64,000 nucleotides of DNA from Bradyrhizobium sp. sBnM-33 (lineage in GTDB: Bacteria; Pseudomonadota; Alphaproteobacteria; Rhizobiales; Xanthobacteraceae): positions 6,820,001-6,884,000 of the forward strand of contig NZ_CP136624.1 of NCBI RefSeq assembly GCF_032917945.1, given 5' to 3'. Position 1 is the stretch's first letter; each line of letters opens with the position of its first letter. The position numbers and the translations under genes were made by a program. Positions 1,162-13,997 of the stretch are shown one piece after another. The notes under the pieces were generated by a model. The model ran no database searches, had not been told where the DNA came from, and saw only the letters and a program-made list of their open reading frames with translations.

Positions 1162-1959
1162 TTGCGCGGCATTGCATTCCCCACGCTCATCCGGACAATT
1201 GGTTTGGCGGGCGCCATCGCATGTACTGCGGCGCTGCGCATGGCGTCTGCCGCCGAGCCGAAGCCGGATTTTTCCATCAAGACCAAGTGGGTCGAAGCCA
1301 GCATCTTTCTCGACGCGAAGATCAAGACCGATCCAGCCCTGGCGGCGAACTGCCTGGCAGAAGGAAAGGCTTGGGCCACAAAGAACCGCGCCGATGCCGA
1401 CAAGGAACGCAAGCAGGATCCGGACCTCTTCCGCAACGCGTGGTCGTTCGAGCGAAAATACGAGACGCGCTCGGTTGTCGATGGACGCTATGTCAGCATC
1501 ATCAGGACCGACTACAAATATACTGGTGGCGCGCACCCCAACAGCTCGTCCGACACGATCCTGTGGGATAAGTCAGCGGGCAAACGCATCAGCATCCGTC
1601 CGTTCTTCACCGAAACGGCCGACAACGGCCCGACGCTGAAAGCAATGCGGCAAGGCGTTATTGCCTCTCTCACGGCCGAGAAAAAGAAACGCGGCGCGGA
1701 AGGCACTGATACCAGCGCCATCGAAAGCATCGAGCCAAAACTTCTCAAGATCGGGCCAGTCGCACTGGCGCCATCGACCGAGGAAGGCAAGAGCTCCGGC
1801 CTGAACTTTTACTACGCACCTTATGCGGTCGGCTCCTATGCCGAAGGCGAGTATGTCGCCTTCGTGCCGTGGGAGATGTTGAAGCAATATCTGACGCCGG
1901 AAGGCGTCAGGATTTTCGGCGGTGCGCGACCGAAGGAAGACGAAGACCGGCCGCAATGA
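1162..1959 (+). CDS. Secreted DUF3298/DUF4163-type protein
   Basis: A 265-residue protein starting at TTG, chosen because AAAGGA lies just upstream and the frame then opens with a hydrophobic signal peptide ending near AAEPKP (residues 30-36). The mature part contains YKYTGGAHPNSSSDTILWD followed by a second conserved half, the pattern of the DUF4163/DUF3298 pair found in RsiV- and PdaC-like extracytoplasmic proteins. These domains bind glycans or lysozyme in some members; the ligand here is unknown. It lies 37 bp after the mutase on the same strand, so cotranscription is possible but a functional link is not evident. Confidence 0.75.
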   Translation: MRGIAFPTLIRTIGLAGAIACTAALRMASAAEPKPDFSIKTKWVEASIFLDAKIKTDPALAANCLAEGKAWATKNRADADKERKQDPDLFRNAWSFERKYETRSVVDGRYVSIIRTDYKYTGGAHPNSSSDTILWDKSAGKRISIRPFFTETADNGPTLKAMRQGVIASLTAEKKKRGAEGTDTSAIESIEPKLLKIGPVALAPSTEEGKSSGLNFYYAPYAVGSYAEGEYVAFVPWEMLKQYLTPEGVRIFGGARPKEDEDRPQ

Positions 1960-1970
1960 CGGCCGCACCA

Positions 1971-2441
1971 TCAAGCAGCACGGCGGCCTAGCGCTCGCTC
2001 CAGCGAATGGGTCCAGTCTGGAATCCAGGACTGGAACAGTGCTCGCCAACGATCCTCATCCTGCGGCGCGGTGTCGAGCTTTACCGACCATTCGATAAAG
2101 GTTCGGTTGCCTTCAACGATCGGAAGCAGATGCATCGTCCCCTCATAGCGCGTCGGCGCTGGAACCTTGGATTGCGACTCGGACGGAAATGGAAACGGAT
2201 CGATGCCCGCATAGGTCAGTGAATGCGCCTGGTCGGAATGGCCCGCCAGCCGCTGCCGGATCCAGTTGCCGAGATAGCAGAAGCGCCTGACCGCACCGAC
2301 TTCGTCGCCGCCTTTGTTGTCTTCGATCACGCTTTCGGTGACGCCTTCGATATAGGCCGGATAATTGTTGAAATCGCGGATCAGGGCCCACACGGTTTCC
2401 AGGGGATGGTTCAGCACGGTGCTGTAATAGGCTGTTGTCAT
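1971..2441 (-). CDS. SRPBCC (START-like) family protein
   Basis: A 156-residue protein beginning TTAYYSTVLNHPLETVWALI, the standard opening strand and helix of polyketide-cyclase/SRPBCC folds, followed by GAVRRF and a C-terminal amphipathic helix ending at ALGRRAA. I place the start at the ATG preceded by GGAGAG rather than 26 codons earlier, because the upstream codons match nothing in the fold. It is probably a cytoplasmic hydrophobic-ligand binder; the ligand is unknown. It is convergent with the preceding gene, with an 11-bp gap. Confidence 0.8.
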   Translation of the reverse strand: MTTAYYSTVLNHPLETVWALIRDFNNYPAYIEGVTESVIEDNKGGDEVGAVRRFCYLGNWIRQRLAGHSDQAHSLTYAGIDPFPFPSESQSKVPAPTRYEGTMHLLPIVEGNRTFIEWSVKLDTAPQDEDRWRALFQSWIPDWTHSLERALGRRAA

Positions 2442-2655
2442 GGTTCTCTCCGCAATCGATCGCGGCTCGATGCTGGGCCGCACACGGATCCCTATTTCGG
2501 GTAGCCCGATCGCCGCCACCCGATTTCCGGCTGTGGCGAGATGCCCGGTGATGAAACCGCTTCACTACCAATGCCTTGCGAGCGGAGCGCAAAGCCGCCT
2601 ACAATGCCGACATTACAAGAGCGCCTGACCTCGCGGCGCCGCAGGGAGGATCACC

Positions 2656-3651
2656 ATGTCCAAAAAGATTACCCGCCGCGCATTCGCGGCTTCGTCTGCT
2701 GCCGCCGCAGCCGTCGCGGGCTTTGGTTTCAAGCCGGCTTTGGCGCAGGCCTACCCGGCCCGGCCGGTGACCGTGATCGTGCCCTGGGGTGCCGGCGGCG
2801 GCACTGATGCGACCGCGCGCATTGTCGCGGCGCTGTTGGAAAAGGATCTCGGCCAACCCTTCAACGTGGTCAACCGCACCGGCGGCTCCGGCGTCGTCGG
2901 ACATTCCGCGATCGCGACTGCACAGCCCGACGGCTACACCATCGGCATGCTGACGGTGGAAATCTCGATGATGCACTGGCAGGGGCTCACCGAACTCGGA
3001 CCCAAGAGCTACACGCCGCTGGCCCTGATGAACGAGGACCCGCCCGGCATCCAGGTCAGTTCCACCTCGCCCTACAAGACCGTGAAGGAACTGGCGGACG
3101 CGATCAAGGCCGCCCCCGCCGGCAAGTTCAAGGCCTCCGGCACCGGTCAAGGCGGAATTTGGCATCTCGCGCTGGTCGGCTGGATGCAGGCGATGGGACT
3201 TGCCCCCAATCACGTTGCATGGGTGCCGTCGAACGGCGCCGCGCCGGCGATGCAGGATCTTGCGGCCGGCGGTCTCGACCTCACCACCTGCTCGGTGCCG
3301 GAAGCCCGCGCCATCATCGAGGCCGGCAAGGCGCGCAGCCTCGCCGTCATGGCTAAGGCGCGTAACCCTGCATTTCCCGACGTGCCGACGCTGAAGGAGG
3401 CGATGGGTATTGATTATTCGACCGGCGCGTGGCGCGGCATTGCCGGTCCCAAGGGCCTGCCTGCCGACGTCTCGGCCAAGCTCACCGCGGCGCTGAAGAA
3501 AGTTTACGACTCGAAGGAGTTCAAGGACTTCATGAGCAATCGCGGCTTCGGAACGGTGTGGGGCGACGCGTCGGAGTTCGCCGCATTCATGGACAAGGGC
3601 GACGCCCAAATGGGCGTGGCGATGAAGGCCGCCGGACTCTCTAAGGCTTGA
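2656..3651 (+). CDS. tctC: Tripartite tricarboxylate transporter substrate-binding protein (Bug/TctC family)
   Basis: A 331-residue periplasmic binding protein. It opens with an export signal containing a twin-arginine-like pair (ITRRAFAASSAAAAA) and an Ala-x-Ala cleavage site near residue 31; the mature N-terminus is AYPARPVTVIVPWGAGGGTD, the diagnostic Bug-family opening. The family captures carboxylates or other small acids for the TctAB permease. A strong ribosome site (AGGGAGG) precedes the ATG. It heads the operon tctC-tctB-tctA. The substrate cannot be read from sequence; proximity to methylmalonyl-CoA mutase and meaB hints at organic-acid use but is not proof. Confidence 0.92.
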   Translation: MSKKITRRAFAASSAAAAAVAGFGFKPALAQAYPARPVTVIVPWGAGGGTDATARIVAALLEKDLGQPFNVVNRTGGSGVVGHSAIATAQPDGYTIGMLTVEISMMHWQGLTELGPKSYTPLALMNEDPPGIQVSSTSPYKTVKELADAIKAAPAGKFKASGTGQGGIWHLALVGWMQAMGLAPNHVAWVPSNGAAPAMQDLAAGGLDLTTCSVPEARAIIEAGKARSLAVMAKARNPAFPDVPTLKEAMGIDYSTGAWRGIAGPKGLPADVSAKLTAALKKVYDSKEFKDFMSNRGFGTVWGDASEFAAFMDKGDAQMGVAMKAAGLSKA

Positions 3652-3693
3652 TCTTGATCGGCTGACATCGCCCGATATCCGCGGAGCCAGTAC

Positions 3694-4179
3694 ATGCGTC
3701 TACCCGATCGCGTCACGGGATTGTTTCTCGTTGGCCTCGGCGCGGCTGCCGCGTATGGCGGCTGGCAGTTGCCGCCGGTGCCCGGCCAGCCGGTCGGGCC
3801 CAACGTCTTTCCACTGGTGATCGGAACGGGCCTGGCCCTGTGCGGGCTTGCGATTGCATTCGGGATCGGCCGCAGCTTTGAGGAGGAAGAACACCTCATT
3901 CCGGCCGAGGGCGGCCAGGTGAAGCCGCCGACCGGCAAGCTTTATGGCCTGCGCGCCCTGCTCCCGCCGGCGCTATTGCTGTTCTACGTGGCGGTCGCCG
4001 AACGGCTCGGCTTCATCATCACGGCAGCGTTGATCGTGTTCGTTACGTCGACAGCGCTTGGCGCCCGCTGGAAGCTTTCGCTGCCGCTCGCCGTGCTGGC
4101 ACCGATCGGCATCCATCTGATCTTCTCGAAATTGCTGCGCGTGCCGCTGCCGGCCGGGCTGCTGCCGATGCCCTGGTGA
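3694..4179 (+). CDS. tctB: Tripartite tricarboxylate transporter small permease subunit TctB
   Basis: A 161-residue integral membrane protein with about four hydrophobic helices: one at the N-terminus (GLFLVGLGAAAAYGGW) and three after residue 85, separated by a charged stretch (FEEEEHL). Length, topology and position between the binding protein and the large permease identify it as the small TctB subunit. The gene lies 42 bp after tctC and ends 3 bp before tctA, so the three are almost certainly one transcript with coupled translation of tctB and tctA. Confidence 0.9.
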   Translation: MRLPDRVTGLFLVGLGAAAAYGGWQLPPVPGQPVGPNVFPLVIGTGLALCGLAIAFGIGRSFEEEEHLIPAEGGQVKPPTGKLYGLRALLPPALLLFYVAVAERLGFIITAALIVFVTSTALGARWKLSLPLAVLAPIGIHLIFSKLLRVPLPAGLLPMPW

Positions 4180-4182
4180 TCG

Positions 4183-5694
4183 ATGCTTAACACCCTCAGC
4201 CAAGCCTTCGCGCTCATTACCACGTGGGAAGTCATCATCGCGATGCTCGCGGCATCGGTCTATGGCCTGGTCATCGGATCGCTGCCGGGGCTGTCCGCGA
4301 CCATGGCCACCGCTCTTCTGGTCCCCGTCACGTTCTATCTGTCACCGATCGCCGCGATCGCCACCATCGTCGCCGCATCCACGATGGCGATCTTCGCCGG
4401 TGATATCCCCGGCGCGCTGCTGCGCATTCCCGGCACCCCCGCCTCGGCGGCTTACGCAGACGAAGCCTATGCGATGACGCGCAAGGGCGAGGCCGAACTC
4501 GCGCTCGGCGCCGGCGTCTGGTTCTCCGCCGTGGGCGGCATCGCAGGCACGCTGTCGCTGATGATCCTCGCGCCGCCGCTGGCCGAAATCGCGCTGTCGT
4601 TCTCGACCTTCGAATATTTCTGGCTCGCATTCCTCGGCTTGATGTGCGCCACGCTGGTCGCGCGGTCTTCCCCGGTGAAGGCAATCGCCAGCATGTTCAT
4701 CGGCCTGCTGGTCGCGTGCATCGGTATCGAAAATCCCGGTGGCGTACCGCGCTTCACCTTCGGCATGACCAATTTGTTCGGCGGCATCGAACCGATCCCG
4801 GCGCTGGTCGGCGTGTTCGCCGTGGCGCAGGTGATGCGGGCGATGCTGACACCGGAGCCGCCACCGATCCCGCGGCGTAAATTCGGGAGCATCATGGCGG
4901 GCCAATGGAAGCTCACCAAAAAGTACAACTGGCAGATGACGCGCGGGAACATCGTCGGCATAATCATCGGCGTGCTACCGGGCGCCGGCGCCGACATGGC
5001 CGCCTGGGTCAGCTACGCCATGTCCAAGCGCTTTTCGAAGGAACCGGAGAAATTCGGAACCGGCCACGTCGAGGGCCTGGTCGAAGCCGGCGCCAGCAAC
5101 AACGCCAGCGTCGCCTCGGGCTGGGTGCCCTCGCTGCTGTTTGGCATTCCCGGCGATACCATCGCGGCGATTGCTATCGGCGTGCTCTACATGAAGGGCC
5201 TCAACCCCGGCCCGACGCTGTTCACCGAAAAAACGTCGAGCATGTATGCGATCTACCTGATGTTCATCATCGCCAACGTCATCATGATCCCGCTCGGCAT
5301 CATCATGATCCGGCTCGCAACCCACGTGCTGCGCGCGCCGCGTTCCACCGTGATGCCGGTCATCATGCTGTGCTGCGCCGTCGGCTCGTTCGCCATCGGC
5401 AACAACATATTCGGCGTCGTTATCGTCGCGACCTTTGGCGTCATCGGTTATGTCATGGAAGAAAACGGCTATCCGGTCGCCGCGATGGTGCTCGGAATCG
5501 TCATGGGCACCATGATCGAGCAGAGCTTCGTGACCTCGCTGATCAAGTCCGACGGCAGCGTGCTGCCGTTCTTCGAGCGGCCGATCGCCGCGATCCTCGC
5601 CGCCATGGCGATCGGCGCGCTGATCTGGCCGGTGCTGGTCTGGGTATGGCGGAAGCTCAAGCGCGAGGCGCCCACCGCTGCGTCGGCGCGCTGA
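4183..5694 (+). CDS. tctA: Tripartite tricarboxylate transporter large permease TctA
   Basis: A 503-residue polytopic membrane protein with roughly ten or more transmembrane helices. Family signatures are IGSLPGLSATMATALLVP near residue 30 and its internal echo GVLPGAGADMAAWVSYAMSK near residue 265, the inverted-repeat loops that form the transport site in TctA proteins. It takes substrate from the Bug protein and imports it using the ion gradient. It ends the tct operon; no convincing intrinsic terminator follows. Length is normal for the family (about 500). Confidence 0.95.
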   Translation: MLNTLSQAFALITTWEVIIAMLAASVYGLVIGSLPGLSATMATALLVPVTFYLSPIAAIATIVAASTMAIFAGDIPGALLRIPGTPASAAYADEAYAMTRKGEAELALGAGVWFSAVGGIAGTLSLMILAPPLAEIALSFSTFEYFWLAFLGLMCATLVARSSPVKAIASMFIGLLVACIGIENPGGVPRFTFGMTNLFGGIEPIPALVGVFAVAQVMRAMLTPEPPPIPRRKFGSIMAGQWKLTKKYNWQMTRGNIVGIIIGVLPGAGADMAAWVSYAMSKRFSKEPEKFGTGHVEGLVEAGASNNASVASGWVPSLLFGIPGDTIAAIAIGVLYMKGLNPGPTLFTEKTSSMYAIYLMFIIANVIMIPLGIIMIRLATHVLRAPRSTVMPVIMLCCAVGSFAIGNNIFGVVIVATFGVIGYVMEENGYPVAAMVLGIVMGTMIEQSFVTSLIKSDGSVLPFFERPIAAILAAMAIGALIWPVLVWVWRKLKREAPTAASAR

Positions 5695-5864
5695 CTGCGC
5701 CGGGCCCCTCGCCTGCAGGGCAAGGCCGTAGTAAGCCAACGGCATAGTGAACTTCCCGTCGGCGCTGGGCGGGATACCGCCAGCGTGCTAGAATTTCACG
5801 ATGACCACGATCGCACATACTATGAGCGGCTTGCGGACACAGATAGATCCGCAATCAAATCCGT

Positions 5865-6593
5865 TTGTTACTTGCTGACATGCACTACTGGAATAAGCAA
5901 AATTTCGAAGGTCTCTCGAAGCTTTCTGAAGAGCTGGACGCGCACCCCAATCTAACGGCGTCGCTGGCAAGCTACTGCCGCTTTCGCGAAAAGGGATTGC
6001 GTCGCGAAGCGCTCTCCGCGCTTGAAGACTTTCTTCTAGCGGCGCGCTCATTTGACAGCGCCGTCGCCCGTTCGGCTGTGGTCACCATCTTGGAAGCAAA
6101 CGCCCGGACAAGCGGGACCCATCAATTCCTTACGCAGCCCTTGGTCACCCGGTTTCTGGTACCGACACTTCGGTCATGGATGGACGATGATCCGGCTGCG
6201 AGCACACCGATCCGATGGCTCGGCATACTTTCGCGTGATGATCAATTGCTTGGTAGAGCTCTCTCGATGTGCCCCGAGGATACTCCAGTGCGAAAGATGT
6301 TGATCGGGGCTGAGCTTTCCTGTGCCGAATATGCGACACATCATCTCGATGAAACCATCTTCCTTGGCAGTGTTGATGGCGTGGTCACAGCCTTAGCCCG
6401 CGCCAGATATCTCATAGCGAACGCCCCAGAGCCCGAGGCGCTTGCTCACCTGACATCCGAAGTGCATTACTTCGATGCCATGGTCGCCGACTGGATAACC
6501 TATTCGAAGGACCCGACAGGCTCCTTCCCCGAGTGGTGTACGAAGCACGGGAGGAAGTACGGCTATCCCATCAAGATCTACTACAAACGGTGA
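5865..6593 (+). CDS. Hypothetical protein, probably frameshifted near its N-terminus
   Basis: The uninterrupted frame from TTG 5865 (or ATG 5880) encodes about 242 residues with no family I recognise; it is helical, acidic and lacks a signal peptide or membrane segments. The adjacent frame upstream, from GTG 5785, encodes plausible protein (LEFHDDHDRTYYERLADTD, then SAIKSVCYLL) that would continue smoothly into the present frame (DMHYWNKQNFEG) if one base were added near 5877. I therefore think the native protein starts near 5785. Base composition is more AT-rich than its neighbours, suggesting a recent arrival. No ribosome site stands out at either start. Confidence 0.6.
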   Translation: MLLADMHYWNKQNFEGLSKLSEELDAHPNLTASLASYCRFREKGLRREALSALEDFLLAARSFDSAVARSAVVTILEANARTSGTHQFLTQPLVTRFLVPTLRSWMDDDPAASTPIRWLGILSRDDQLLGRALSMCPEDTPVRKMLIGAELSCAEYATHHLDETIFLGSVDGVVTALARARYLIANAPEPEALAHLTSEVHYFDAMVADWITYSKDPTGSFPEWCTKHGRKYGYPIKIYYKR

Positions 6594-10719: not shown

Positions 10720-10749
10720 GACCCGTCCGGGGGGACAACCGGACGGGTC
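10711..10749 (-). terminator. Intrinsic terminator downstream of the S8 protease gene
   Basis: A perfect 11-bp stem (GACCCGTCCGG / CCGGACGGGTC) with an 8-base loop is followed on the minus strand by TTTCATTTTC. It lies about 175 bases beyond the protease stop, in the right orientation to end the sigma/anti-sigma/protease operon. Confidence 0.75.
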
Positions 10750-10924: not shown

Positions 10925-12637
10925 CTATTTTGCGGCGTTTGCGGCCGATTTGTCCGCTGCCATCGAGGGCAAGGGCTCGTTCAGTGCGCGGCTCACGGAA
11001 GTGTTATCCGCAGCCGGGTCTTGCGCCGGCGCTTTCTCCCCCGCCGGCTTGCCGGAAGCTGAAGCAAGCGGAACCGCCGGTGCGGCAGCCGCGGCGGTAA
11101 CGGCGGCAAAGGCATCGGCCTCGCCTGCCCCAAACTGATCGTCACGGCCGGGGCTGCCGAGATCGCGGGCGGTCCTGGTCAGGATTGCGCGAACATCGCC
11201 CGGCTTCAACGAAGGATTGCGCTCCAGCATCAACGCCGCAACGCCGCTGATATAGGCGGCGGAGAACGAGGTGCCGGATGTGATCTGGTATTTTTCATCC
11301 GGTGCCGGCAGGAAGATATCCGCGCCCGGCGCGGCAACCGCGATGTGGTTGCCGCGGTTCGATGCCGCAAACAGTCTTTCCTGCGCGTCGGTGCCGCTCA
11401 CCGCAATGACGTTGGGATTAGCGGCCGGATAGAGCGGCGGCGATTTCGCACCGGCATTGCCGGCCGCAGCCACCATCAGGATGCCACGGGCCGCCGTCGC
11501 CGCGATGCCTCGCTCGATCAGCGGATCCTTCGGACCGGCAAAGCTCATATTGATGATCTGCGCGCCGTGCTCGGCCGCATAGTCCAATCCCCGGAGGATT
11601 ACATAGGACGTGCTCTCCGCACCCTTCGATCCCGCGCCGAAGGCGCGGATCGCGATCAACCTCGCCTCCGGTGCGCTACCCATCAGCTTGGCATGCGCCA
11701 CGATCGCGCCGGCAATGCCGGTGCCGTGGACATGCGGACCTTCCTTGCTTCCGAGCGCATCGAAACTGTCGGCGACCGAATTGGCGAGTTCGGGATGCTT
11801 GGTGTCGACGCCTGAATCAATCACCGCAATGGTGACGTTCATGCCTCGGACGAGCGCGTGCGCCTGTGGCAGCCGAAGCTGGGCGATGGCGTATTGCGCG
11901 GCATCGCCCGCGGTCGAAGCCTTCTTCTGATCCTGCAGGAAGTAACGGAAATTGAGCTGCACCGAACGCACGCTGGCGTCGGCCGCAAGTTCGCGGCGCA
12001 CGGTGTCCACCGGCCGGTTATCGACGATGCGGAACAGGCCGATGGTGCCGGCGAGCAGCGGGAAGTTCTGCGACGCGATGCGCTCCAGGCCATGACGCCG
12101 CGCCAGTTCGTCGGCCTCGGCGGTGGATAACGCACCGTCGATTTCGGCGACGAGTTCGTTCTTGACCGCGCGCAGATCGACCGCAGCCTGTGCGTTGTTG
12201 TTGGCCGATCCGCCCTTGCCCTTCTTGGCCGAGGTACCGCTGCCGCCGCCGGCCGACATCACCGGACGATCGAAGCACTCGCCGTCGGGACCGCGAAGCG
12301 CATATGCGCAAGCCGGATAGAGGTTGGGCGAAAACCGCGCATGAGGCAGCGTCGACGGCACGCCGGCCCCCGGACGGACTCGCAGGGTCGTGGCGCCGAT
12401 CCGGGACGGCGGCGTCCGTGCGACGGTAGCGGCGCGCACAGCCGGCCGCGCCGCGACGGTCGGACTGATCCGCGGCGTTGTGGGTACTCGCGCGCCAACG
12501 TTCAGACTGGGGGTGCGCATGATGCTCTGCGCATGCACCGCCGAGGGTCCGTACGCGATCAGTGGCAACAGCGCGGCCGACAACACCCATGCCGCACGCC
12601 GGGTCCTTGTCCACCAACTCACGCCATCATGAACCAT
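10925..12637 (-). CDS. Secreted S8 (subtilisin-like) serine protease
   Basis: A 570-residue exported protease. A signal peptide ends near HAQS (residue 38); a Pro/Arg/Thr-rich low-complexity stretch follows (about 40-105), then a Lys/Gly/Ser/Asn-rich segment. An N-terminal pro-domain-like region spans about 157-236 (ELVAEIDG, TIGLFRIVDN, VRSVQLNF). The catalytic domain shows Asp274 (AVIDSGVD), His304 (HVHGTGIAGA), oxyanion Asn393 (AAGNAG) and Ser457 (TSGTSFSA). The C-terminus is Ala/Pro-rich. It is the last gene of an operon with an ECF sigma factor and a membrane anti-sigma factor, starting 35 bp after the anti-sigma gene, so its expression is probably under that sigma factor. Confidence 0.92.
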   Translation of the reverse strand: MVHDGVSWWTRTRRAAWVLSAALLPLIAYGPSAVHAQSIMRTPSLNVGARVPTTPRISPTVAARPAVRAATVARTPPSRIGATTLRVRPGAGVPSTLPHARFSPNLYPACAYALRGPDGECFDRPVMSAGGGSGTSAKKGKGGSANNNAQAAVDLRAVKNELVAEIDGALSTAEADELARRHGLERIASQNFPLLAGTIGLFRIVDNRPVDTVRRELAADASVRSVQLNFRYFLQDQKKASTAGDAAQYAIAQLRLPQAHALVRGMNVTIAVIDSGVDTKHPELANSVADSFDALGSKEGPHVHGTGIAGAIVAHAKLMGSAPEARLIAIRAFGAGSKGAESTSYVILRGLDYAAEHGAQIINMSFAGPKDPLIERGIAATAARGILMVAAAGNAGAKSPPLYPAANPNVIAVSGTDAQERLFAASNRGNHIAVAAPGADIFLPAPDEKYQITSGTSFSAAYISGVAALMLERNPSLKPGDVRAILTRTARDLGSPGRDDQFGAGEADAFAAVTAAAAAPAVPLASASGKPAGEKAPAQDPAADNTSVSRALNEPLPSMAADKSAANAAK

Positions 12638-12672
12638 GGGACCTCAGCTTGCCCGGCCCGCGCCAGGCGACC

Positions 12673-13386
12673 TTACGGCGTTGCCACCGCCAGGCTGACG
12701 ATCTTTTCACGCTGCAGCCTCTCCAGCAGAGCTGCGGCTTCGTCCTTGCCAACAGCCTTATTGCCGAATTGCAGGCGGAACATGCCGCCCTTGGCGCCAT
12801 CGACGATGGAGGCCTGGTAATTGTCGAGCAAAGCGGTGATGTCGGCGATACGGGCTTCGGGCGCGAACCGTACCAGCGCGCGCGGCGGCGCGGCGCTGAT
12901 GCCGAGATCGCGGGTGATGGGCGCCGACGACCGCTCGTTTACGCTCAGCGAAGCGGTCTGGAACGAAGCGGTCTGGTTCTTCATCAGCACGGCGCCGATC
13001 ACGCCGGCCTGCAACACGAGCGCCACCGCGCCGAGGCTCGCCGACCAGGCGAGCGTACGCGGCGACAGGCTTGCGAAAAATTCCGACACCCGCGCGGACA
13101 GGCTCACCGAGCGCGAGGGCTCGCGCGCAGGCTCCGCGTCGATCGCAGCAAACAGCTTCTGCATGGCGCGCGCGGACGGCGCTCCGAGGCTCTCGTTGAG
13201 GCTGATCGTCTCGGCGTATTCTTCGCGGATGACGGCATACTGCCGGGCAAGGGCGGGATCCCCGGCAAGCGCGTCCTCGACGCGGCGTGCATCGCGCGCG
13301 CTCAGGGTGCCGGCCGCGTGGAAGGGCAACAGCATCTCGATTTCGCTGGGATCGTGATCCAGCATTTTTTTGCTCGCTGCCATCAT
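12673..13386 (-). CDS. Membrane-anchored anti-sigma factor with protease-prodomain-like C-terminal domain
   Basis: A 237-residue protein. Residues 10-45 (EIEMLLPFHAAGTLSARDAR) resemble the helical anti-sigma core but lack the Cys residues of zinc-binding versions. One transmembrane helix lies near 112-136 (WSASLGAVALVLQAGVIGAV), giving a cytoplasmic N-terminus and a periplasmic C-terminus. The C-terminal domain (about 168-237) runs ALVRFAP, GGMFRLQF, LLERLQREKIVSLAV, the same order of elements as the pro-domain of the adjacent S8 protease. The ATG at 13386 overlaps the sigma-factor stop as ATGA, which fixes the start; a longer in-frame ORF upstream merely runs through the sigma gene. Confidence 0.85.
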   Translation of the reverse strand: MMAASKKMLDHDPSEIEMLLPFHAAGTLSARDARRVEDALAGDPALARQYAVIREEYAETISLNESLGAPSARAMQKLFAAIDAEPAREPSRSVSLSARVSEFFASLSPRTLAWSASLGAVALVLQAGVIGAVLMKNQTASFQTASLSVNERSSAPITRDLGISAAPPRALVRFAPEARIADITALLDNYQASIVDGAKGGMFRLQFGNKAVGKDEAAALLERLQREKIVSLAVATP

Positions 13387-13952
13387 GGCCAACCTCGCTC
13401 TATGCCTGCTGCTTTGAGCAACTCGGCCAATTTCTTGCGCGCATAAAACAAGCGCGTCTTGACGGTGTTCTCCGGAATGCCGACGATTTCGGCCACCTCT
13501 TCCACGGACTTCTCGTGGTAGTAGACGAGATCGACGATCTCCCGATGCTCTGGCGAAAGTGCCGTCAGGCACTTGCGCAACGCTTCACCCGTATCCTTCT
13601 TCTGCACCACCACTTCCGGATCGTCGGACGTATCCTCGATCGCGTTCGCGGCTTCCTCGTCCAGCCCAACGTCCTTGCGGCGCCTGAGTGCCGAAAGAGC
13701 CTTGAACCGCGTAATCGCCAAGAGCCAGGTAGTAACGGCGGATCGGCCTTCAAACTTGCCAGCCTGACGCCACACATCGAGAAAAACCTCGCTGATGAGG
13801 TCTTCCGCGACCTGCTCGTCCCTTACGAGCCGAAGCCCGAAACGGAACACCCTGACATGGTGCCTTCCGTAAAGCACCTGCATGGCGAGCCGGTCGCCTT
13901 GAGCGATCCGAGCGATCAGAACTTCGTCTGAAGCCGCCTGTGTCGCGCTCAA
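13383..13952 (-). CDS. ECF RNA polymerase sigma factor
   Basis: A 189-residue sigma-70 family factor. Region 2 is visible (HVRVFRFGLRLVRDEQVAED, WLLAITRFKALSALRRRKD), as is region 4 (LSPEHREIVDLVYYHEKSVE, IPENTVKTRLFYARKKL). It has no region 1.1 or 3, as expected for extracytoplasmic-function factors. It starts at TTG (MSATQAAS) with a weak ribosome site. It is translationally coupled to the anti-sigma gene (ATGA overlap) and is followed by the S8 protease, forming one transcription unit. It likely activates its own operon; the inverted repeat upstream is a candidate control site. Confidence 0.93.
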   Translation of the reverse strand: MSATQAASDEVLIARIAQGDRLAMQVLYGRHHVRVFRFGLRLVRDEQVAEDLISEVFLDVWRQAGKFEGRSAVTTWLLAITRFKALSALRRRKDVGLDEEAANAIEDTSDDPEVVVQKKDTGEALRKCLTALSPEHREIVDLVYYHEKSVEEVAEIVGIPENTVKTRLFYARKKLAELLKAAGIERGWP

Positions 13953-13997
13953 TGGCCGTCTCGCAAGATTGGTCGGACGGGGGTGGCCGGCGGTTCG

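Follow-up and report, generated by a model that had tools for sequence, protein, structure and literature searches.

The window (the whole 64,000-nucleotide stretch analyzed here, positions 6,820,001 to 6,884,000 of NZ_CP136624.1, the single 9.18-Mb contig of the Bradyrhizobium sp. sBnM-33 genome) contains an operon that encodes an extracytoplasmic function (ECF) sigma factor, a membrane anti-sigma factor and a secreted pro-subtilase of peptidase family S8. Profile comparisons and structure models indicate that the C-terminal, periplasmic domain of the anti-sigma factor is homologous to the prodomain of the operon's protease, of the fervidolysin type (PF22148). Further examples of the module occur in other Alphaproteobacteria and in other classes of Pseudomonadota. 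Given this kinship, the cell may use a prodomain-like cap to sense its own protease.

The operon and its products

13969..13997, minus strand: ECF-type promoter, CGAACC-N16-CGACCAA (motif common upstream of the sigma genes)
13383..13952, minus strand: ECF sigma factor, 189 amino acids, TTG start (Pfam Sigma70_r2 and r4_2; NCBIfam PRK12515)
12673..13386, minus strand: membrane anti-sigma factor, 237 amino acids, ATG start (position; weak zf-HC2 and weak NF052375 matches; kept in relatives)
12982..13038, minus strand: transmembrane helix of the anti-sigma factor, residues 117-135 (hydropathy 2.11)
12949..12963, minus strand: juxtamembrane FQTAS, a copy of [FY]x[TS]A[STG] and a candidate cleavage site (motif survey)
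12676..12882, minus strand: prodomain-like periplasmic domain of the anti-sigma factor, residues 169-237 (hhalign; PF22148 in relatives; AlphaFold; VIA-align)
10925..12637, minus strand: secreted S8 subtilase, 570 amino acids (PF00082, 158.5 bits; AlphaFold model)
11936..12169, minus strand: protease prodomain, residues 157-234
11123..11842, minus strand: protease catalytic domain, residues 266-505, with D274, H304, N394 and S457 (Pfam; column conservation)
10720..10749, minus strand: terminator-like stem-loop (11 pairs, 9 of them G-C) with a T-rich tail

The sigma stop and anti-sigma start codons overlap as ATGA, the protease gene follows after a gap of 35 bp, the terminator-like stem lies about 175 bp past the protease stop, and the promoter copy stands 16 bp ahead of the sigma start codon. 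Open reading frame coordinates and a stem search thus bear out the sequence-only reading, an earlier interpretation of this DNA, in its three coupled minus-strand genes, their spacing and the terminator; that reading also placed a single transmembrane helix at about residues 112-136, within which the best hydrophobic segment was found. A PHROGs search with the next gene downstream of the operon gave no match.

The sigma protein has regions 2 and 4, scores 348 bits against a PRK12515 cut-off of 236 and adjoins an anti-sigma gene, which marks it as an ECF sigma factor. Its partner has one transmembrane helix and is encoded by a gene overlapping or following the sigma gene, as expected of a membrane anti-sigma factor; a sigma gene accompanies it in 30 of 30 loci of the genus and in 85 of 86 of the order, the exception (L237) being cut at a contig end. 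The cytoplasmic part of the window protein matches zf-HC2 at 17.2 bits, below the cut-off of 22.2, which six relatives exceed (L280, L281, L283, L286, L291 and L296). The protease has an Asp-His-Ser triad and an oxyanion Asn, all four columns being invariant among 44 aligned sequences, and the AlphaFold model of residues 140-525 (predicted local distance difference test, pLDDT, 91.4; predicted template modeling score, pTM, 0.90) has the prodomain docked on the catalytic domain; together with the PF00082 match, these features are those of an S8 zymogen.

An anti-sigma ectodomain related to a protease prodomain

The sequence-only reading had called the anti-sigma ectodomain protease-prodomain-like, and profile-profile comparison, HMMER, Pfam searches with relatives and AlphaFold models all agree. 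Alignments of anti-sigma C-terminal domains and of prodomains of the neighboring proteases were built from fetched loci and compared with hhalign. A first set (66 C-terminal domains against 64 prodomains, 63 of the 64 being used) gave probabilities of 84.0% (P = 7.6e-6, 64 collinear columns) and 89.8% (P = 1.8e-6, 63 collinear columns), with 60 column shuffles at or below 2.2% and the reversed profile at 3.2%. A second set, which had 73 nonredundant loci and included some from beyond the class, gave 88.9 and 93.5% (P = 2.4e-6 and 2.3e-7), and none of 100 shuffles exceeded 2.2%; the collinear span was 62-64 columns over both sets. For the cytoplasmic part of the anti-sigma factor, the probability was 0.5% when compared with the prodomain and 4.8% with the C-terminal domain. 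In HMMER searches, a prodomain hidden Markov model matched 38 of 167 anti-sigma C-terminal domains at E ≤ 0.01 and none of the 167 cytoplasmic parts. The similarity had originally been argued from three short elements, which are no evidence by themselves; it is the domains that are similar, in profile and predicted fold, and the profile tests rule out a chance resemblance of those elements. A strand motif, [YF][RK]x[RQK], occurs in 34 of 73 anti-sigma factors and 16 of 73 prodomains and is too weak to use.

Assignment to PF22148 rests on homologs, because neither window protein matches this family: the Pfam search gave no PF22148 match to the window anti-sigma domain, and the window protease is not among the 28 of 44 proteases that match. 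PF22148 does match 4 of 66 anti-sigma C-terminal domains, and in L291 the score (24.7 bits) exceeds the cut-off of 21.0. In the anti-sigma factors the domain closes the chain, unlike the PF22148 prototype, in which it lies N-terminal to an S8 catalytic domain.

The AlphaFold models predict a common beta-alpha-beta-beta-alpha-beta topology (E, strand; H, helix): E27-32 H38-47 E50-55 E60-65 H72-83 E88-94 in the anti-sigma domain and E18-28 H33-42 E45-53 E58-65 H71-79 E84-95 in the protease prodomain. Domain limits proposed earlier from the sequence, 168-237 in the anti-sigma factor and about 157-236 in the protease, match the models to within a few residues, and the two predicted folds, far from being unrelated, agree. 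The anti-sigma model has pLDDT 75-88 in the domain blocks and 72.2 overall, with pTM 0.54. A search of the PDB with the anti-sigma sequence found nothing at E ≤ 10. Mirror-tree comparison over the 73 loci gave partial rho values of 0.29 for C-terminal and catalytic domains, 0.40 for the control pairing of cytoplasmic part and catalytic domain, and -0.02 for C-terminal domain and prodomain.

Could the ectodomain instead be a generic small beta-alpha domain, which has an old fold in common with prodomains and senses, for example, peptidoglycan, the protease being a mere output of the regulon? VIA-align of the domain model supports prodomain kin, but among the families in its list unrelated ferredoxin-like folds score nearly as high; SPOR profiles weakly match 6 of the 66 domains (best E = 0.024), and some loci lack an S8 gene. 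PF22148, however, is the better match (best E = 1.7e-4), the profile comparison selects the prodomain specifically, and within the order the domain co-occurs nearly one to one with a single S8 subfamily, all of which makes a generic sensor improbable.

The three genes stay together across genomes

All 36 genus genomes searched, the window's own included, have the anti-sigma factor, and the 30 loci examined all have the sigma gene and an S8 gene, the latter downstream and in the same orientation. Of 297 genomes drawn from the order, 86 gave an anti-sigma match; among 88 loci examined, 86 bear the anti-sigma gene by profile and 81 of these also an S8 gene. Four of the five lacking S8 have less than 1 kb of downstream sequence, and in the fifth, L237, a contig end leaves only half of the gene, the probable other half of which, L240, has S8 upstream of sigma. 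The protease profile divides its matches in these genomes into two score classes, at least 337 bits and at most 266 bits, the lower one including partial matches. Counted by genome, 81 have both matches, five the anti-sigma factor only, four the protease only and 207 neither, among related genomes and uncorrected for phylogeny, so that the Fisher P value of this table does not stand for a true probability. The co-occurrence survey that the sequence-only reading proposed thus reveals a very tight association, and a domain kept where the protease is consistently absent, which would have spoken against that reading, was not the pattern.

Individual cases qualify these counts. Inspection of the loci did not confirm the anti-sigma matches of G051 and G052, which moves G051 to protease only and G052 to neither; the protease of G046 is in two pieces, G201 and G248 end at contig edges, and the protease match of G171 is partial. 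Among the protease-only genomes, G226 does have an anti-sigma gene, at a contig edge, the contig of G112 starts just before S8, and G070 and G071 have no anti-sigma gene within the stretch examined.

For the best 80 of 237 candidate loci, S8 was sought up to 6 kb on each side and found in 70, in two of them (L072 and L081) only by a longer profile. A genome-wide search of 13 genomes (12 of loci first lacking S8, plus that of L138, with S8 on the other strand) gave a match in 11. Of the ten genomes finally without a nearby S8 gene, seven have a strong match elsewhere and G332 only a weak one (9.6e-12); no S8 match was found in the genomes of L087 (a 3.0-Mb assembly) and L089. The genomes of L082 and L093 carry another complete operon.

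Farther afield, 21 of 337 genomes of the class, the window's own included, gave matches, and S8 is present in 13 of 14 loci analyzed; seven weak matches without S8 (L173-L179) were set aside. In the phylum, 86 of 398 genomes matched, many to the cytoplasmic part only. Eighteen regions, picked mostly for a match reaching into the C-terminal domain, include 13 with S8 (eight of them from genomes outside the class), two with a caspase domain (L285 and L287) and three with neither. As a control, 20 anti-sigma factors matched mostly in the cytoplasmic and membrane parts include four with S8, all divergent and all of family f64.

The order of the genes has changed in places: the protease lies upstream of sigma in seven loci, two of which (L040 and L068) have one promoter sequence in common, and L170 and L292 have an inverted anti-sigma gene. 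Because such rearrangements have not separated the genes, co-inheritance without linkage is rejected.

Several related arrangements were seen along the way. In family f64 (L299, L303, L311 and L313), an ECF/anti-sigma pair whose ectodomain appears by eye to be different and bears cysteines is divergently oriented to a pro-subtilase gene. This constitutes another type of ECF-subtilase pairing. The anti-sigma factors of L285 and L287 are distant relatives with a prodomain-like end that adjoin Peptidase_C14 genes (caspase domains at 1844-3478, minus strand, and 3588-5942, plus strand, respectively), with no S8 within the stretch examined. Several genomes have a second high-scoring protease copy, and those at L322 (G261), L323 (G328), L324 (G166) and L325 (G301) have no sigma or anti-sigma gene in the stretch examined. 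L089, from Bradyrhizobium macuxiense, retains sigma and the anti-sigma factor with its C-terminal domain; the protease gene and the promoter motif were not found.

A promoter motif upstream of the sigma genes

A spaced-word count upstream of 76 nonredundant sigma genes found GAACC-N16-CGAC in 52 regions, whereas no word exceeded 4 in three shuffles. The longer pair TGAACC/CGAC is present with 9 or 10 of its 10 bases in 63 of 76 regions, 60 of these with the 16-base spacer (44 of 1520 in shuffles). The sequence data thus support the view that the ECF sigma factor transcribes its own operon from this promoter. Where the protease forms a separate unit (L068, L192, L196 and L145), a 10-of-10 copy lies upstream, at some distance; among the separate protease copies, L323 and L325 have a 9-of-10 variant upstream, and L322 and L324 have no good copy.

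In L068, L192 and L145 the motif is followed by a gene for a small secreted Gly/Tyr/His-rich protein, with cysteine as its second-last residue, and then by the protease. The window's own genome has seven copies of the motif in all, against one for the control, the six further ones being at L242-L246 and L248; these precede, among others, genes for a peptidoglycan-binding trypsin-like protease, an SPFH/Band_7 protein and a DUF805 protein. The six possibly mark a regulon.

A proposed switch and its rivals

How could a prodomain-like cap control a sigma factor? Mature subtilases, as known from subtilisins, have an exposed prodomain-docking face. In the proposed mechanism, all of whose steps beyond homology and linkage we infer, the sigma factor would transcribe its own operon, and the anti-sigma factor would hold sigma at the membrane and display the prodomain-family domain in the periplasm. 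This domain would dock on the exposed face of a subtilase that has shed its prodomain, letting that subtilase or another site-1 protease cut the anti-sigma factor near the juxtamembrane [FY]x[TS]A[STG], after which intramembrane proteolysis would free sigma. The motif occurs near the end of the transmembrane helix in 46 of 73 nonredundant loci (5 to 15 residues past the helix in 45 of them) and once in 14573 positions elsewhere; it could be the cleavage site, since an aromatic residue with a small residue at a short distance suits subtilisin-like cutting.

The anti-sigma factor would thereby read the periplasmic ratio of mature to prodomain-bound subtilase, and we give about an even chance to a signaling module of this kind, its binding, cleavage and direction of feedback included. 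More tentatively, the module may be an autocatalytic sensor of its own product, built on a captured prodomain and used across Pseudomonadota, in which docking and the juxtamembrane cut free sigma when mature subtilase outnumbers prodomain, and in which a swap to a caspase-like partner may have occurred in places.

The end of the domain bears on what docking would do. Counted from the conserved last-strand valine, anti-sigma tails are seven residues long in 39 of 73 loci, at most seven in 43 and 8 to 21 in 30. Past the same valine, 70 of 73 prodomains go on to a Tyr or Phe at +9, while 40 have Leu at +11 and 32 have Gln at +12. Prodomain tails enter the active site of the protease. If the residues at +9, +11 and +12 do so here, the short tail of the window domain would let it recognize the protease without plugging the active site. 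A docking or recognition domain is thus more likely than a full inhibitory decoy, and product-like inhibition by the window domain is less likely. The sequence-only reading had spoken of a decoy prodomain: the kinship and the co-occurrence stand, and the full inhibitory decoy is disfavored by the short tails.

Does the domain mainly fold, hold or block the protease at the membrane, as a tethered inhibitor or chaperone, while the sigma switch answers a different signal? The tight gene linkage would suit such a role, as would the tails, longer than the window's, in 30 of the loci; SUB1-ProM, a stand-alone propeptide-like protein whose gene neighbors those of subtilisins, inhibits potently according to the accessible part of PMC6993865. 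We nevertheless consider this role unlikely, given the 43 loci, the window included, in which the domain stops at or before the seventh residue past that valine, short of the conserved prodomain residues. A receptor in which the prodomain is bait for plant or competitor subtilases, which the home protease calibrates or mimics, has a parallel in RsiV, an anti-sigma factor whose cleavage results from its binding and inhibition of an external enzyme (accessible part of PMC5014341), but is highly improbable, for the co-occurring proteases of the order fall in one score class and the home enzyme is therefore indicated as the partner.

Several observations weigh against the module as a sensor of mature subtilase. 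Ten of the 80 best loci keep the domain without S8 in the stretch examined; in the window and 42 of 72 other loci, the domain ends where a prodomain continues with the tail that would enter the active site; on the coding strand of 13 separately placed S8 stretches (L140-L145, L147, L148 and L150-L154), some of them incomplete, a good promoter copy is present in L145 and a doubtful one in L153, the other eleven having none; and 10-of-10 copies occur at unrelated places too (L150, L158, L196 and L323). As a whole, then, the interpretation that the protease signals to the sigma factor through the ectodomain is partly supported: homology and linkage hold, and its simple form is weakened by the loci without S8 and by the short tails.

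Relation to known systems

If the proposed mechanism is right, a transcriptional switch monitors the maturation of a secreted protease by presenting kin of that protease's folding cap. The sigma factor, whose anti-sigma partner is present in every genus genome searched, thereby gains a signal and a target that lend themselves to direct testing. A literature search, including the accessible part of PMC7406223, found no account of such a circuit; the ECF reclassification (10.1093/nar/gkaa1229), outside that search, may list an S8 neighbor.

Subtilases have been placed near ECF sigma factors before: the genomic context of group ECF54 includes subtilase, carboxypeptidase and CHAT domains (PMC8999054, in its accessible part). 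Another rhizobial ECF sigma factor with a protease target gene is RpoE6-EcfR6 (ECF26) of S. meliloti, whose prominent targets include the gene for the serine protease SMa0142; there, in contrast to the module described here, the gene order is divergent, the promoter words are GGAATA-like, and "subtilisin" is absent from the main text, as far as PMC6180224 is accessible. The prodomains of pro-subtilisin and fervidolysin (PF22148; PDB 2zwo and 1r6v) have the same predicted fold and profile, and the model of the window protease is such a zymogen, but there the prodomain covalently precedes its own protease.

The closest molecule is SUB1-ProM of Plasmodium, likewise a propeptide-like domain beside subtilisin genes and on a chain separate from the protease, but reported, in the part of PMC6993865 at hand, as an inhibitor outside any anti-sigma or transcription circuit. 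The closest logic is that of RsiV, the anti-sigma factor for sigma-V of Bacillus subtilis, whose ectodomain recognizes an enzyme: as far as the available portion of PMC5014341 goes, RsiV is both receptor and inhibitor of lysozyme, and enzyme binding is required for site-1 cleavage. There the ligand is lysozyme, whereas here the domain is kin to a prodomain, that of the protease whose gene shares the operon.

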